Source of the DNA: Streptomyces erythrochromogenes
GTDB taxonomy: Bacteria; Actinomycetota; Actinomycetes; Streptomycetales; Streptomycetaceae
DNA: 64,000 nt
Assembly: GCF_036170895.1 (NCBI RefSeq)
Contig: NZ_CP108036.1
Location: forward strand, 5,449,501 to 5,513,500
Direction of reading: 5' to 3'
Shown: in pieces, positions 32,384 to 39,200 of the stretch
Layout of the letters: each line of letters begins with the position of its first letter
How positions within the stretch are numbered: the first letter of the stretch is position 1
Notes under the pieces: model-generated
Databases searched by the model: none
Told to the model about the DNA's origin: nothing
What the model saw: the letters and a program-made list of their open reading frames with translations, nothing else
Made by a program: the position numbers and the translations under genes

Positions 32384-34075
32384 GTGAACGACCGACAGGA
32401 TCCGTACGACCCGTATGCCGCCCACGAGCAGCAGCTCATCGGCTACGACGCGTACGGGCGGCCGGTGTACGGCCAGGCGCCCGCGCAGCCCGCCCAGCCC
32501 GCCCAGCCCGCCCAGCAGTACGAGCAGCAGTACGGCTACGACTACCAGGGCTACGACCAGCGGCAGCCGCAGCAGTACTACCAGCAGCAGCCGGCGGCCC
32601 AGGAGTACGGGCAGCAGGAGTACACCCAGAGGCCCTCCTACGGCTACGACGCGCAGCAGGCCCCGCAGGCCCAGCAGCAGACCCAGCAGTGGATCCCGCA
32701 GCAGACGGCGCCCGAGCCCCCGGCCGCCGAGCAGCCCCCCGCCCCGGCGGAGCGGCCGGCCCCCCAGGTCCCCGAGCCGCGCCGGCCCGAGGGCGGCTCC
32801 GAGGCGGGCCGGGACTACCGCACCGAGATGTTCGCCTTCATCGACCAGCCGGACGAGGACTCCGAGGACGTCATCGACTGGCTCAAGTTCACCGAGAGCC
32901 GCACCGAACGCCGCGAGGAGGCCCGCCGCCGCGGCCGCAACCGGGTGGTCGCGCTGATCGTCGTCCTCGCGGTGTTCGTCGTCGCGGGCCTCGGCTACCT
33001 CTGGTACGCGGGCAAGCTGCCGTTCCTCGACGGTCCCGGCGGGAAGAAGACCGCCGCCACCGCGGACGCCGCGGCGCAGAAGCGCGACATGATCGTCGTG
33101 CACCTGCACAACACCAAGAAGGGCGGCACCTCCTCGGCGCTGCTCGTCGACAACGTCACCACCAAGCAGGGCGCCACCGTCCTGCTGCCGAACGCCCTCG
33201 CCGTCGCCAACCAGGACGGCACCGCCACGGCACTCGGCAAGGCGGTCGAGGAGGGCGGCCTCGGCACCCGCGAGGCCCTCGACTCGGTGCTCGGCACCCG
33301 CATCGGCGGCACCTGGCGCCTGGACACCCCCTTCCTGGAGAACCTGGTCGAGCTGGTCGGCGGCATCGAGGTCGACACCGACGCCGCGGTCCCGGCCGAC
33401 GACGCGGCCAAGACCCCGGCCGTGGCCCAGGGACAGAAGCAGAGCCTGAGCGGCCCGATGGCCGTCGCGTACGCCACGTACCGCGCCCAGGGCGAACCGG
33501 AGGCCAAGCAGCTGGAGCGCACGGGCAAGGTGCTCCACGCGGTCCTGCGCAAGTTCCCCAGTGACCCGAAGGCCGGGGCGGTCACGGTCGAGAGCATCGG
33601 CCAGATCCTCGACCCCGCGCTGAACGCGCAGACCCTCGGGGCCCTGCTGTCCAAGCTCGGCGCGCACGCCAAGGTGGGCGCGTACCGCACCGACGCCATC
33701 GCGGTGAAGGCGGACGGGACGCTCACGGAGGAGGCCAACAAGAAGGTGGTCAAGGAGGTGCTCGGCGGCTCCGCCGACGCGGCGCAGCCCGGCGCCACCC
33801 CGCGCGTCGGACTCAAGGACGCCACCGGCGACGAGAAGACGCAGGTCGCGGCGAAGGCGGCGCTGATGAACGGCGGCTACACCTTCGTGGACGGCGGCAA
33901 GGCCGACAAGACCGCGACCGCCTCGCAGATCACCTACCAGGACGACGCCCAGCGCGACCGCGCGATCGAGGTCGCCAAGACGCTGGGGCTGCCCGAGACC
34001 GTCGTGAAGAAGGCCGAGAACGTCGTGAACGCCGAGGTCGTGGTGATCCTCGGGAAGGACTACAAGCCGTCCTGA
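32384..34075 (+). CDS. LytR-CpsA-Psr-like protein with LytR_C domain (atypical)
   Basis: 563 residues. A long Gln/Tyr/Pro-rich cytosolic region (1-145, many QQY repeats) leads to a basic stretch, one membrane helix (about 186-208), an LCP-like extracytoplasmic domain (about 225-430) and a C-terminal LytR_C domain (about 460-560). LCP proteins transfer wall teichoic acids or similar polymers from lipid carrier to peptidoglycan. Position after nadD matches a Streptomyces LCP protein described as a poly-diglycosylphosphate transferase (PdtA); I infer but did not verify orthology. The Arg-rich pyrophosphate-binding motifs of classical LCP proteins (RSDT and PRD) are not evident here, so it may be regulatory. 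GTG 32384 follows GGAGAGAGGGG. Confidence 0.82.
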   Translation: MNDRQDPYDPYAAHEQQLIGYDAYGRPVYGQAPAQPAQPAQPAQQYEQQYGYDYQGYDQRQPQQYYQQQPAAQEYGQQEYTQRPSYGYDAQQAPQAQQQTQQWIPQQTAPEPPAAEQPPAPAERPAPQVPEPRRPEGGSEAGRDYRTEMFAFIDQPDEDSEDVIDWLKFTESRTERREEARRRGRNRVVALIVVLAVFVVAGLGYLWYAGKLPFLDGPGGKKTAATADAAAQKRDMIVVHLHNTKKGGTSSALLVDNVTTKQGATVLLPNALAVANQDGTATALGKAVEEGGLGTREALDSVLGTRIGGTWRLDTPFLENLVELVGGIEVDTDAAVPADDAAKTPAVAQGQKQSLSGPMAVAYATYRAQGEPEAKQLERTGKVLHAVLRKFPSDPKAGAVTVESIGQILDPALNAQTLGALLSKLGAHAKVGAYRTDAIAVKADGTLTEEANKKVVKEVLGGSADAAQPGATPRVGLKDATGDEKTQVAAKAALMNGGYTFVDGGKADKTATASQITYQDDAQRDRAIEVAKTLGLPETVVKKAENVVNAEVVVILGKDYKPS

Positions 34076-34109
34076 CCGGGCCCCGGCCCGGCCGGGGGAG
34101 CGCGGGCGC

Positions 34110-34135
34110 GCCCGCGCGGAACGTTCCGCGCGGGC
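34110..34135. terminator. 26-bp perfect palindrome after LCP gene
   Basis: 34110-34122 and 34123-34135 are exact reverse complements with an AACGTT centre, 34 bases after the stop codon. It can act as a terminator hairpin. Confidence 0.65.
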
Positions 34136-34195
34136 TCTGTCGGCGGCACATGAGACCCTTGTAAGGATCTGCCCGCCAACCCGAAAGCATGGCCA

Positions 34196-34642
34196 GTGAC
34201 CGCCACGGACCGCTCCATCGAGCTCATCACCACCGCTGCCCAGGCCGCGGCCGACCGGCTCGCGCACGACATCATCGCGTACGACGTCAGCGACGTGCTG
34301 TCGATCACCGACGCCTTCCTGCTCGCCTCGGCGCCCAACGACCGTCAGGTCAAGTCGATCGTCGACGAGATCGAGGAGCGCCTGCAGAAGGAGCTCGGCG
34401 CCAAGCCGGTGCGCCGTGAGGGCGACCGCGACGCCCGCTGGATCCTGCTCGACTACGTCGACATCGTCGTCCACGTCCAGCACAGCGAGGAGCGGGTCTT
34501 CTACGCGCTGGAGCGCCTGTGGAAGGACTGCCCGGAGATCGAGCTCCCCGAGGACGCCAAGCTCACCATCGGCAAGGCCGAGGAGCACGCCAAGCTGCGC
34601 GAGGCGACGGGCGGCGACGACCTGGACGGTGATCTGTTCTGA
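34196..34642 (+). CDS. rsfS: Ribosome silencing factor RsfS
   Basis: 148 residues of the DUF143 family, with conserved DVSDVLSITDAFLLASAPNDRQVKSI split by the usual helix turn and WILLDYVDIVVHVQ. It binds L14 on the 50S subunit and blocks subunit joining during starvation. GTG 34196; a weak promoter is probable upstream because a palindromic terminator intervenes. The stop codon TGA (34640-34642) overlaps the probable CTG start of the next gene. Confidence 0.95.
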   Translation: MTATDRSIELITTAAQAAADRLAHDIIAYDVSDVLSITDAFLLASAPNDRQVKSIVDEIEERLQKELGAKPVRREGDRDARWILLDYVDIVVHVQHSEERVFYALERLWKDCPEIELPEDAKLTIGKAEEHAKLREATGGDDLDGDLF

Positions 34643-35304
34643 GCGCGACCGACGCGGCCGCTCCGGCCAGGTCCAGCAGGAAGATCGTCCTCTGGCGGCA
34701 CGGCCAGACCTCGTGGAACCTGGAGCGGCGCTTCCAGGGCTCCACGGACATCGAGCTGACCGAGGCGGGCCTGGCGCAGGCGCGCCGCTCCGCGCGGCTG
34801 CTCGCCTCGCTGAAGCCGGACGCCATCGTCGCGTCCGACCTGAAGCGCGCCGCGGCCACCGCGGCCGAGTTGGCCGCCGTCACGGGCCTGCCCGTGACGC
34901 ACACCGAGGCGCTGCGCGAGACGTACGCCGGCGAGTGGCAGGGCCTGACGCACGAGGAGATCGTCGAGAAGTACGGCGAGCAGTACGCGGCGTGGAAGCG
35001 CGGCGAGCCGGTTCGCCGCGGCGGCGGTGAGCTGGAGACCGAGGTCGCCGACCGCGCCGCGCCCGTGGTGCTGGACCACACGGAGCGGCTGCCGTCGACC
35101 GGCACGCTCGTCGTGGTCAGCCACGGCGGCACCATCCGTACGACCATCGGCCGTCTGCTGGGTCTCGAGGCGCACGCCTGGGAGAGCCTGGGCGGGCTCT
35201 CCAACTGCTGCTGGTCCGTGCTCGGCGAGGGCGCGCGCGGCTGGCGTCTGCTGGAGCACAACGCCGGCACCCTGCCGGAACCGGTGCTCGGCGACGACGA
35301 CTGA
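34639..35304 (+). CDS. Histidine phosphatase family protein
   Basis: 221 residues. The catalytic motif WRHGQTSWN starts at residue 19 (His21), with the second His in VVSHGGTIR. It is a phosphoglycerate-mutase-like phosphatase; the substrate is unknown. Start: an in-frame TGA at 34630-34632 limits the gene upstream, and no ATG, GTG or TTG lies between it and the catalytic RHG, so translation must begin at CTG 34639 (or another rare codon). That CTG overlaps the rsfS stop as CTGA, the usual coupling geometry. A sequencing error is the alternative. Confidence 0.85.
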   Translation: MSATDAAAPARSSRKIVLWRHGQTSWNLERRFQGSTDIELTEAGLAQARRSARLLASLKPDAIVASDLKRAAATAAELAAVTGLPVTHTEALRETYAGEWQGLTHEEIVEKYGEQYAAWKRGEPVRRGGGELETEVADRAAPVVLDHTERLPSTGTLVVVSHGGTIRTTIGRLLGLEAHAWESLGGLSNCCWSVLGEGARGWRLLEHNAGTLPEPVLGDDD

Positions 35305-35345
35305 GCGGGCTCCCTGCCGCTTCCCACCGGGGCTCCGACCCGGAT

Positions 35346-35375
35346 TTCACTTTCCGGCTGGTCACAGGCTAGAGT
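35346..35375 (+). promoter_or_regulatory. Promoter of first tRNA-Ala
   Basis: TTCACT (35346-35351), 18 bp, TAGAGT (35370-35375), 54 bases before the tRNA. Confidence 0.45.
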
Positions 35376-35428
35376 TCTTCTTGTTCGCAGCGAAGAACGC
35401 CGGAGACGGGGGAAGCGCAGCGGAGAGC

Positions 35429-35501
35429 GGGGCTATAGCTCAGTTGGTAGAGCGCCTGCATGGCATGCAGGAGGTCAGGAGTTCAATTCTCCTTAGCTCC
35501 A
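35429..35501 (+). tRNA. tRNA-Ala (GGC anticodon), copy 1
   Basis: 73 nt, CCA not encoded. Acceptor stem GGGGCTA pairs with TAGCTCC and includes the G3-U70 wobble that marks alanine tRNAs. D-arm GCTCAGTTGGTAGAGC, anticodon stem CCTGC/GCAGG with loop ATGGCAT (anticodon GGC), T-arm with GGAGTTCAATTCTCC, discriminator A. Confidence 0.97.
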
Positions 35502-35506
35502 CAATC

Positions 35507-35545
35507 AGGATCCCGTCCCCAAGTGGGGGCGGGATCCTTGTTTTT
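35507..35545 (+). terminator. Intrinsic terminator after tRNA-Ala copy 1
   Basis: A 14-bp stem (35507-35520 with 35525-35538, one G-T pair) and AAGT loop, followed by TGTTTTT. Confidence 0.9.
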
Positions 35546-35644
35546 ATACCCTTTGCGTTTGCTGACCTGGCCCGCACCGGCGTGGCAGAATCGGACGGCC
35601 GGAGGGGGAGTCGACGGCCCGACGCGGGAGGGAGTCGCGAACGG

Positions 35645-35878
35645 ATGGGTGCACACCGGCGCCGGTGCGACTGGTGCAACAACGGGACGCCGATCGTGCG
35701 GGACATGGACCCGGTCAACCCCGACTACCAGTACTGGTGCGAGGAATGCGCGCGGGCGCTGATCATAAAGGGCGACCCGATCGAGACGTACCGCGAGCTG
35801 GAAGGGGAGCCGATCTACGGGCGGCTGCTCGACGAGCACTGCACGCTCAAACGCTTCTACCAGTTCGCGAGAGCGTGA
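35645..35878 (+). CDS. Small Cys4 zinc-ribbon-like protein (77 aa)
   Basis: 77 residues. C8-x2-C11 and C32-x2-C35 form a probable treble-clef or ribbon zinc site, followed by a helical GDPIETYRELEGEPIYGRLL segment. I recall this as conserved in Streptomyces but without assigned function. ATG 35645 has GGGAGGGAG about ten bases upstream. It lies alone between two identical tRNA-Ala genes and is followed by a small terminator (35909-35927). Confidence 0.72.
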   Translation: MGAHRRRCDWCNNGTPIVRDMDPVNPDYQYWCEECARALIIKGDPIETYRELEGEPIYGRLLDEHCTLKRFYQFARA

Positions 35879-35908
35879 CAGACTACGCAAATCGGACATG
35901 GCCCTTGG

Positions 35909-35927
35909 TCGGTGGAAACCGATTTTT
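35909..35927 (+). terminator. Small intrinsic terminator after the Cys4 gene
   Basis: TCGGT-GGAA-ACCGA followed by TTTTT. It sits inside a larger inverted repeat (ATGGCCCT..GGTC with GACCAGGGCCAT, about 35899-35940). Confidence 0.7.
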
Positions 35928-35953
35928 GGACCAGGGCCATGACCGTGTAATGT
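35926..35953 (+). promoter_or_regulatory. Promoter of second tRNA-Ala
   Basis: TTGGAC (35926-35931), 16 bp, TAATGT (35948-35953), overlapping the preceding terminator. Confidence 0.55.
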
Positions 35954-36008
35954 TTGGGACGTCGCCAAGGGGAACCGGCAAGGGAAACCGAAGCGGCAAA
36001 CAGGGCAA

Positions 36009-36081
36009 GGGGCTATAGCTCAGTTGGTAGAGCGCCTGCATGGCATGCAGGAGGTCAGGAGTTCAATTCTCCTTAGCTCCA
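36009..36081 (+). tRNA. tRNA-Ala (GGC anticodon), copy 2
   Basis: Identical over all 73 nt to the tRNA at 35429-35501, 580 bp away. Flanks differ, so only the tRNA itself (plus about two bases) is duplicated. Confidence 0.97.
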
Positions 36082-36088
36082 CAGTGAA

Positions 36089-36121
36089 GAAGCGGGCCAC
36101 CCGGATCGGGTGGCCCGCTTC
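36089..36121 (+). terminator. Terminator after tRNA-Ala copy 2
   Basis: A perfect 15-bp stem (36089-36103 with 36107-36121), three-base loop GAT, weak T content after it. Confidence 0.8.
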
Positions 36122-36171
36122 TCGTTGTGTCAGCCGGCGGAACGGCTGAGCGCCGGCGGGGGCCGCTGCGG

Positions 36172-36177
36172 TACCCT
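36172..36177 (+). promoter_or_regulatory. -10 element (TACCCT) of the leuS transcript
   Basis: Ends six bases before the leader peptide ATG (36184), so the leader peptide would be translated from a leaderless start. Confidence 0.5.
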
Positions 36178-36183
36178 GACGCC

Positions 36184-36222
36184 ATGCGTGCCGTACGCCT
36201 CCTGCTTACCGAGCCGCGCTGA
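36184..36222 (+). CDS. leuS leader peptide ([12 protein letters not shown])
   Basis: A 12-codon open frame with three consecutive Leu codons (CTC CTG CTT, 36199-36207), directly followed by alternative RNA structures and an intrinsic terminator, then leuS. This is the layout of a ribosome-mediated transcription attenuator sensing charged tRNA-Leu. Attenuators before leuS have been predicted comparatively in some Streptomyces. Confidence 0.75.
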
Positions 36223-36285
36223 ACAGTACCGACCTTCGAACGGTCGGCCTCGGCGCGGCGCCCCCTCCTGTGCGAGGGGTTTTTT
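36213..36285 (+). promoter_or_regulatory. Transcription attenuator of leuS with intrinsic terminator
   Basis: The terminator is CCCCTC (36262-36267) with GAGGGG (36274-36279) followed by six T (36280-36285), rare in this genome. Competing pairs: CCTCG (36248-36252) with CGAGG (36273-36277) would break it. GCCGCGC (36213-36219, end of the leader peptide) with GCGCGGC (36253-36259) would release it. A local hairpin CCGACC/GGTCGG (36229-36247) lies between. Confidence 0.75.
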
Positions 36286-36335
36286 CGTTTGGGCAGGCAG
36301 AGACGGCAGAGACGATCGATGGAGCTTCAGAAATC

Positions 36336-39200
36336 ATGAGCGAGACGAACACCCCGGCCCCCGAGGCGGCCGAGGCGCACCGCTACACGGCTGCCATGGC
36401 CGCCGACATCGAGGCACGCTGGCAGGACGTATGGGACGCGCAGGGCACGTACGAGGCCCCGAACCCGACCGGTGACCTGGCCGGGGACCCTGCGGTCGTC
36501 GCGCGGCCCAAGAAGTTCATCATGGACATGTTCCCGTACCCGTCCGGTGCGGGCCTGCACGTCGGTCACCCGCTCGGGTACATCGCCACCGACGTCTACG
36601 CCCGCCACCAGCGGATGACCGGCCACAACGTCCTGCACACCCTGGGATTCGACGCCTTCGGCCTGCCGGCCGAGCAGTACGCCGTGCAGACCGGCACGCA
36701 CCCGCGCGTGTCGACCGAGGCCAACATCGAGAACATGAAGCTCCAGCTGCGCCGGCTGGGCCTGGGCCACGACAAGCGCCGGTCGTTCGCCACGATCGAC
36801 CCGGACTACTACAAGTGGACCCAGTGGATCTTCCTGCAGATCTACAACTCCTGGTACGACGCGGACGCGAAGAAGGCCCGGCCGATCGCCGAGCTGGTCG
36901 CCGCCTTCGAGGACGGCTCCCGTGAGGTCCCGGGCGGCCGCGCCTGGGCCGGGCTGACCGCGGCCGAGCGGGCCGACGTACTGAACGGCTTCCGGCTGGC
37001 GTACTCCTCCGACGCGCCCGTCAACTGGTGCCCCGGGCTGGGCACCGTACTGGCCAACGAGGAAGTCACCGCCGACGGCCGCTCCGAGCGCGGCAACTTC
37101 CCGGTCTTCAAGTCCAAGCTGAGCCAGTGGAACATGCGGATCACCGCGTACGCCGACCGGCTGCTGGACGACCTGGACGCGCTGGACTGGCCCGAGGCCA
37201 TCAAGCTGCAGCAGCGCAACTGGATCGGCCGCAGTGAGGGCGCGCGCGTCGACTTCGCGCTGGGCGACGAGGCCATCACCGTCTTCACCACCCGCCCGGA
37301 CACCCTGTTCGGCGCCACCTACATGGTGCTGGCGCCCGAGCACCCGCTGGTCGAGAAGTTCATCCCGGCCGCCTGGCCCGAGGGCACCCACGACGTGTGG
37401 ACCGGCGGGCACGCCACGCCGGCCGAGGCCGTCACCGCCTACCGCAAGCAGGCCGCCTCGAAGTCGGACGTCGAGCGCCAGGCCGAGGCGAAGGACAAGA
37501 CCGGCGTCTTCACCGGCGAGTACGCGATCAACCCGGTCAGCGGCGACAAGGTCCCGGTCTTCATCGCCGACTACGTCCTGATGGGCTACGGCACCGGCGC
37601 GATCATGGCCGTTCCGGCGCACGACAGCCGGGACTTCGAGTTCGCGCGCGCCTTCGAGCTGCCGATGCGCTGCGTCGTGCAGCCCTCGGACGGCCGTGGC
37701 ACCGACCCGGCCGAGTGGGACGACGCCTTCGCCTCCTACGACGCGAAGCTGGTCAACTCCACGGGCGAGGGCATCTCGCTGGACGGCCTGGGGGTCGTCG
37801 AGGCGAAGGCCGCGATCACCGAATGGCTGGCCGAGCGCGGCATCGGCGAGGGGACGGTCAACTTCCGCCTGCGCGACTGGCTGTTCAGCCGCCAGCGGTA
37901 CTGGGGCGAGCCCTTCCCGATCGTCTACGACGAGGACGGCGTCGCGCACTCCCTGCCCGAGTCGATGCTGCCGCTGGAGCTGCCGGAGGTCGAGGACTAC
38001 TCGCCGCGCACCTTCGAGCCGGACGACGCGGACTCCCAGCCGGAGACCCCGCTGTCGCGCAAGGCCGACTGGGTCAACGTCGAGCTGGACCTGGGCGACG
38101 GCGTGAAGTCCTACCGGCGCGAGACCAACACCATGCCCAACTGGGCCGGTTCCTGCTGGTACGAGCTGCGCTACCTGGACCCGAACAACTCCTCCGCGCT
38201 GGTGGACCCGGAGGTCGAGCAGTACTGGATGGGCCCCCGCGAGGGCGCTCCGCACGGCGGTGTCGACCTGTACGTGGGCGGCGCCGAGCACGCGGTGCTG
38301 CACCTGCTGTACGCCCGCTTCTGGTCGAAGGTGCTGTTCGACCTGGGCCACGTGTCGTCGGTGGAGCCGTTCCACAAGCTGTTCAACCAGGGCATGATCC
38401 AGGCCTACGTCTACCGCGACGAGCGCGGCTTCCCGGTCACGGCCACCGAGGTCGAGGAGCGCGACGGCAAGTTCTTCTTCGAGGGCGAGCCGGTCAAGCG
38501 CGAGCTGGGCAAGATGGGCAAGTCCCTGCGCAACGCCGTCACGCCGGACGAGATCTGTGAGGAGTACGGGGCCGACACGCTGCGCCTGTACGAGATGGCG
38601 ATGGGTCCGCTGGACGTCTCCCGTCCGTGGGACACCCGCGCGGTGGTCGGCCAGTACCGGCTGCTGCAGCGCCTGTGGCGCAACATCGTGGACGAGGAGA
38701 CCGGCGCGGTCACCGTCGTGGACGGCGAGCCCGCCGAGGACACCCTGCGTGCGCTGCACAAGGCCATCGACGGCGCCGGCTCGGACATGGCTGGGCTGCG
38801 GTTCAACACCGCCATCGCCAAGATCACCGAGCTGAACAACGCGCTGACGAAGGCGGGCCGCCCGCTGGAGCGCTCGGTCGCCGAGCGGCTGGTGCTGCTG
38901 GTCGCCCCGCTGGCCCCGCACATCGCGGAGGAGCTGTGGCACCGGCTGGGCCACAGCGAGTCCGTGGTCCACCAGGACTTCCCGGTCGCGGACCCGGCGT
39001 ACGTCGTGGACGAGAGCGTCACGTGCGTCGTCCAGGTCAAGGGCAAGGTCAAGGCGCGGCTGGAGGTGCCGCCGACGATCACGGACGCCGAGCTGGAGCA
39101 GCTGGCCGTGAACGACGCCGGTGTCGTGGCGGCGCTGGGCGGCGCGGAGATCCGCAAGGTGATCGTGCGCGCGCCGAAGCTGGTGAACATCGTCATCTGA
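36336..39200 (+). CDS. leuS: Leucyl-tRNA synthetase
   Basis: 954 residues, class I aminoacyl-tRNA synthetase. The HIGH signature is HVGH (75-78) in [15 protein letters not shown], and the KMSKS signature is KMGKS (about 726-730). The large editing (CP1) insertion lies at about 250-450 and the anticodon-binding domain near the C-terminus. It charges tRNA-Leu in the cytosol. ATG 36336 has GGAG at 36321-36324. Expression is probably controlled by the upstream Leu-rich leader peptide and attenuator. Confidence 0.97.

Follow-up and report, generated by a model that had tools for sequence, protein, structure and literature searches.

A probable leucine-responsive leader-peptide attenuator of leuS in Streptomyces with no sign of a classical antiterminator

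Leader-peptide attenuators ahead of leuS, the gene for leucine--tRNA ligase, have been described before in Streptomyces. Classical attenuators of this gene were predicted in S. avermitilis and S. coelicolor by Seliverstov et al. in 2005 (PMC1262725), and the 2021 reannotation of S. lividans lists leuL2 (SLIV_24828) as a leaderless ORF of 12 codons, followed by a hairpin with a U-stretch and then by leuS, its account of leuL2 proposing no detailed pairing (PMC8079986). Two systems in other bacteria are also close in logic. In the E. coli pyrBI operon it is the ribosome itself that prevents folding of the terminator, and UTP is sensed through pausing of the polymerase in a U-rich leader (PMC10135430). 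For ilvB1 of M. tuberculosis, a 2026 study proposed mutually exclusive RNA structures, in which an anti-terminator can form while the ribosome is stalled and cannot form once it is at the stop codon, and reported that the regulatory codons are needed (PMC13236596).

The window (the whole stretch of DNA that was analysed, 64,000 nucleotides from the 8.6 Mb genome of Streptomyces erythrochromogenes) contains the element listed as leuL2 in S. lividans, with a 12-codon Leu leader before leuS and a hairpin with a U-run before the same gene; the leader peptide differs from leuL2 in one residue. Its parts, in window coordinates, are as follows:

36172..36177, forward strand: -10 box TACCCT, separated from the leader ATG by six bases
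36184..36222, forward strand: leader ORF of 12 codons with a TGA stop, putatively leaderless
36199..36207, forward strand: three consecutive Leu control codons, CTC CTG CTT
36208..36212, forward strand: unpaired gap of 5 nt between the last Leu codon and the stem
36213..36222, forward strand: strand 1 of a 10-bp stem, spanning the last codons and the stop codon of the leader
36229..36247, forward strand: inner hairpin (36229-36234 with 36242-36247) within the loop of the stem, variable in relatives and absent from some
36250..36259, forward strand: strand 2 of the 10-bp stem
36260..36261, forward strand: spacer of 2 nt between the stem and the terminator
36262..36285, forward strand: intrinsic terminator with a 6-bp stem (arms 36262-36267 and 36274-36279), a 6-nt loop and six T (36280-36285)
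36336..39200, forward strand: leuS, leucine--tRNA ligase of 954 aa (TIGR00396, 905 bits against a cut-off of 548)

No U-rich stretch occurs in the GC-rich leader ahead of the U-run that belongs to the terminator, and the stop codon of the leader lies 39 nt from the terminator. An initial annotation, made from the letters of this DNA, had placed the -10 box, leader, three Leu codons and terminator where we find them and had read them as leader-peptide attenuation of leuS from a leaderless ORF, a reading that our analysis supports. It had also noted a pairing of 36213-36219 with 36253-36259, which exists and is part of the longer stem listed above, and had rightly said that the class is not new, given the earlier predictions in two Streptomyces (PMC1262725). 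The leaderless leader, which it took to be special to this copy, is reported for S. lividans leuL2 as well (PMC8079986). The observation is thus right, and the class and the leaderless feature are already known. Leaderless cysteine leader peptides in mycobacteria are reportedly the topic of a cited paper, and a comparative study from 2010, cited in PMC8269248, may treat leuS leaders more broadly.

Several features of the region are modest when taken one at a time. The leader region folds at -44.2 kcal/mol, against -36.25 +/- 3.26 kcal/mol for dinucleotide shuffles (z -2.44), a modest signal taken alone, with 4 of 200 shuffles folding at least as well. The terminator is intrinsic and has its six T, but by a terminator scan alone it does not stand out as had been supposed: seven such sites, this one among them, lie between 27000 and 46000, where shuffles give a mean of 3.1. 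Among the matches listed by an Rfam scan of 34000-38000 with E up to 5, none overlapped 36172-36336, leaving a T-box unsupported; two tRNA genes reached the gathering score in that scan. Just 5' of the leuS leader stand two tRNA-Ala (GGC) genes, at 35429-35502 and 36009-36082, both copies having identical letters in the Rfam alignments. A separate promoter for leuS between the terminator and the gene was considered and dropped, TANNNT occurring there in 1 of 137 leaders.

Comparison with relatives was based on 154 leuS upstream regions (103 from the genus, 31 from other genera of the family and 20 from other families), counted after removal of L002 and L003, which are not leuS, and of L102, L104, L105 and L140, whose genomes were already represented. 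Within the genus, 119 of 121 genomes matched and 90 regions were read, and 13 further regions came from a second survey, one genome of these being also among the 119. For other genera of the family, 31 regions from 30 genomes were read, out of 80 genomes, and in a class-level survey 57 of 118 genomes matched at E 1e-150, 40 of the 47 outside the genus being read. The leader was found in all 103 genus regions and in 30 of the 31 regions from other genera of the family, 26 by the ORF rule and four by eye (these have a GTG start or a broken Leu run); the sole miss is an additional leuS gene of a genome that carries the leader before its other leuS. Two leuS genes are present in genome G213, one with the leader (L128) and one without it (L127). 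Among regions of other families it occurs in 17 of 40, namely in f17 (9/9), f24 (3/5), f28 (2/3), f9 (1/2), f26 (1/1) and f32 (1/1), and none was found in f13 (0/5), f4 (0/7), f22 (0/3) or f16 (0/4).

An ATG-initiated ORF with three consecutive Leu codons is present in 133 of the 154 regions. In every one of these leaders a TANNNT motif precedes the ATG, at 6 nt in 124 and at 7 nt in 9, the count being made without selecting for the motif (in three rows the start was shifted to an ATGCG upstream of an internal ATG); the background density of TANNNT in the window is 0.00055 per base. Such constant placement of the motif in all 133 leaders rules out a chance origin of the element. Under a relaxed rule, which also accepts GTG and TTG as starts and just two Leu codons in a row but requires TANNNT 4-8 nt upstream, 144 of the 154 regions have a leader. 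Fold counts refer to 144 rows (145 by the leader rule minus L132, whose insert exceeds the search span) or, with L198-L200 added, to 147; L196, which stops early, and L201, whose terminator letters differ, show the element by eye and were excluded from all fold counts. CTT serves as the last Leu codon in 140 of 144 leaders and CTC in four; the leuS gene of the window itself uses CTG 75 times, CTC twice and CTT not at all. In leader L198, VASQQQRLIGPR, Gln codons (QQQRL) replace the Leu run, and both stem strands are kept together with the CTT, which stands four codons from the end. Leader L196 stops immediately behind LLLT, where the stem begins, and stem-like strands and the terminator persist there.

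Promoter box, leader, Leu codons, stem and terminator stand at fixed spacings. The gap between the last Leu codon and the stem is 5 nt in 143 of 144 leaders, the lone exception having a fourth Leu codon, and the stem is followed by the terminator after 1-3 nt in 144 of 144. The insert between the stop codon and strand 2, in contrast, ranges from 10 to 79 nt among the 144 leaders. Thus, the distance from the control codons to the terminator is kept only when it is measured through the closed stem. The stem can form all ten pairs in 136 of the 147 leaders; 9 leaders allow nine pairs, one allows eight and one allows seven. Covariation, which had been suggested as a check on the pairing segments, is present though thin, because only 14 distinct strand combinations exist: pair 6 changes on both sides from G-C to A-T in L107, L108, L110 and L121, pair 5 from C-G to T-A in L157, and pair 10 from A-T to G-C in L151 and L152, where the stop codon is altered. 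When the commonest strand 2 is put in place of their own, L151 and L157 gain one pair and L152 is equal; only the four L107-type rows pair better with their own strand.

We consider it very probable, from this arrangement, that the element is a transcription attenuator of leuS that responds to leucine, depends on the ribosome and lies on a leaderless transcript. When leucine is abundant, the ribosome would reach the stop codon, melt the stem and leave; once it is gone, the terminator 39 nt past the stop could fold and leuS expression would be low. With charged tRNA-Leu scarce, the ribosome would halt on a Leu codon just before the stem, and the intact stem would loop out the spacer, bringing the terminator to 13, 10 or 7 nt past the A-site codon (first, second and third Leu) instead of 60, 57 or 54 nt. 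The stalled ribosome would then prevent the terminator from folding and RNA polymerase would proceed into leuS. The antiterminator would be the stalled ribosome itself, with no competing RNA pairing. For this account as a whole, including the steric block of the terminator by a Leu-stalled ribosome, we would put the chances slightly below even.

Published work on ribosomes and terminators gives a scale for these distances. It has been argued that the hairpin must be separated from the A site by no fewer than 10-15 free nt, a terminator near a stop codon suffers almost full repression of its function, and function is maximal beyond about 27-30 nt, the effect of distance being sequence-dependent (an efficiency of about 0.12 at 17 nt and of 0.8 at 18 nt, in different series; PMC4824070). 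A reach of 7-13 nt together with a stop codon at 39 nt thus fits a ribosome that would block the terminator when stalled on Leu and would not when it has finished. The stop codon is closer than 27 nt to the terminator in 23 of 147 leaders, and there a ribosome that has finished might interfere with termination too. Direct action of the ribosome on the terminator, reported for pyrBI (PMC10135430), is for leuS only proposed, at a distance through the closed stem of 7-13 nt as calculated from the coordinates; the leuS leader further differs from that of pyrBI in having Leu codons and a looping stem and no U-rich leader.

Folding predictions were made with a ribosome footprint that masks the RNA as far as 14 nt past the first base of the codon in the P site. 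Since the Leu codons precede the stem, a ribosome stalled on the first of them leaves it intact, with a mean predicted pairing probability of 1.00 under this standard footprint, and it is only the ribosome at the stop codon that removes it (0.00). This does not support the claim in the initial annotation that stalling on Leu would mask 36213-36219. Counting against the steric model is the last Leu codon, the most conserved, whose footprint removes part of the stem, leaving a pairing of 0.31 over its first 7 nt. We infer the steric step purely from geometry; by predicted folding, stem and terminator would coexist.

The stem could instead be the antiterminator in its own right, forming when the ribosome stalls upstream, undone when it reaches the stop codon, and hindering the adjacent terminator without the ribosome's help. 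The predicted state of the stem does follow the ribosome as this scheme requires, being intact with the ribosome on the first Leu codon and gone at the stop, and a scheme of this kind has been put forward for ilvB1 of M. tuberculosis, whose induction was lost when Ala codons replaced the LVVI codons (PMC13236596). The two leaders would have in common the ribosome logic for the read-through structure, but the mutually exclusive structures proposed for ilvB1 are, as judged from the sequence, not a feature of leuS: stem and terminator share no bases, lie next to each other in all 144 leaders, and are predicted to form together when no ribosome is present (stem 0.99, terminator 0.96). Furthermore, such a stem would imply read-through whenever the leader is untranslated. 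We regard this alternative as unlikely.

A classical attenuator of the trp type, in which the Leu-stalled ribosome masks strand 1 and a second helix then blocks the terminator, is what was published for leuS of two Streptomyces (PMC1262725) and what the initial annotation proposed, with 36248-36252 pairing to 36273-36277 as the antiterminator. That helix does exist in the window copy, and the stem is weakened by a stall on the last Leu codon. Its five pairs, however, are all possible in just 4 of 147 leaders (four pairs in 41, three in 66, two in 36), and the control codons sit outside the stem. To put a number on such pairing, we used a 5'-arm test, which measures pairing of the 5' arm of the terminator before its 3' arm has been made and takes values above 0.5 as sequestered; it is blind to antiterminators that take only the 3' arm, for which conservation alone informs. 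All five E. coli controls scored at the first control codon (trpL 0.62, thrL 0.82, leuL 0.60, hisL 0.64, pheL 0.84), although the test is imperfect, thrL also giving 0.56 without a ribosome and hisL 0.64 at the stop.

The trp leaders of Streptomyces provided a control within the genus. They were found by a rule requiring TANNNT 5-8 nt before the leader start; 21 of 30 pattern loci passed the leader rule, the window's own genome had no match to the trp pattern, and the genes behind the two trp leaders that were checked resemble anthranilate synthase component I. Like the leuS leader, these have a short leader with control codons, TANNNT and a terminator, but they behave as classical: with the ribosome at the first Trp codon the 5' arm is sequestered in 21 of 21 (mean 0.99), compared with 0.39 at the stop and 0.67 without a ribosome. 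For the leuS leaders the test gave 0.12, 0.17, 0.34 and 0.21 with the ribosome on the first Leu codon, on the last Leu codon, at the stop and absent; scores above 0.5 were seen in 0, 2, 22 and 9 of 144 leaders, respectively. The window copy gave 0.03, 0.02, 0.37 and 0.04 in the same states. The contrast between leuS and trp was unaltered by footprints from +11 to +17 at 30 or 37 C (48 of the 144 leuS rows and 21 trp rows). Thus, of what marks the trp type, the leuS leader has the ORF with control codons and the intrinsic terminator, whereas strand 1 is not masked by a stall on the first Leu codon and an antiterminator on the 5' arm appears in none of 144 leaders at the first Leu codon and in two at the last. 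In these predictions the leuS RNA shows no sign of a classical antiterminator, and the trp leaders of the genus show one plainly; a classical mechanism for leuS seems improbable to us.

Other readings of the folding were set aside. The equilibrium probability of the terminator was rejected as evidence: it is about 0.98 in stalled leuS leaders, yet four of the five E. coli controls, with the ribosome on their first control codon, also give at least 0.95. By eye, strand 2 (GCGCGG) could pair with the loop of the terminator (CUGUGC), but this helix is wobble-rich and not kept in all loops; the Leu codons could likewise pair with the 3' arm GAGGGG, though the resulting logic would be wrong. With the ribosome at the stop codon, the terminator probability of the window copy drops to 0.08 through pairing of the inner hairpin region, and it is below 0.5 in 15 of 144 leaders. 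That there is no leucine control at all, a constant terminator passing a fixed share of transcripts and the leader being translated incidentally, also seems improbable: the terminator probability is nearly equal without a ribosome and with a Leu-stalled one, as it is in four of five E. coli attenuators at the first control codon, but different families retain the Leu run with its spacing and the CTT codon, and L198, with its QQQRL, still retains the CTT.

A second leader of the genus shares the layout that underlies the steric reading. The ilvB leader (ilvL in S. lividans) was found as a pattern in 21 of 31 genus genomes (L216-L236), the window's own included, and the downstream gene is that for the acetolactate synthase large subunit in both cases checked, one of them in the window genome. 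The copy in that genome is L221, on the minus strand at G000:C1:2749849-2749880. As in leuS, the last Leu codon is a CTT, at codon 8, a stem covers the end of the leader and a CCCCTC(G) terminator comes at once after it; in 21 of 21 the 10-bp stem starts 4 nt after the CTT and ends directly at the CCCCTCG terminator. The ilvB leader differs from that of leuS in its Ile, Leu, Val and Leu codons, its gap of 4 nt, its spacer of 0 nt and its acetolactate synthase gene. Measured through the stem, the four codons lie 13, 10, 7 and 4 nt from the terminator. At most 2 of 21 leaders exceeded 0.5 in the 5'-arm test in any state (mean without a ribosome 0.47), and by this test an antiterminator is predicted to be absent here too. 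A search for a thrS leader, made with a back-translation of a segment of the S. lividans peptide, found it in 0 of 31 genomes.

It is conceivable, though we hold it with some doubt, that the leuS and ilvB leaders make up a kind of attenuator free of a separate antiterminator, in which the stem folds away the spacer, the stalled ribosome serves as antiterminator, and the distance over which the control codons act (through the stem, 7-13 nt for leuS and 4-13 nt for ilvB) is set by the shadow of the ribosome on the terminator. In the passages of the literature that we covered, we found no statement that the leuS and ilvB leaders lack the classical antiterminator of the trp leaders of the genus and instead keep the spacing through the stem. 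The leuS element was filed as classical in 2005 from the S. avermitilis and S. coelicolor candidates, which have gene, leader ORF and terminator in common with ours (PMC1262725), yet the classical part of the RNA is not detected here by our predictions. If true, the steric model would explain why stem and spacing are kept alongside a drifting loop. It would also bear on an old report, cited in the same paper (PMC1262725) and counting against the model as it stands, that codon changes in the ilvB leader of S. coelicolor had no effect on regulation.
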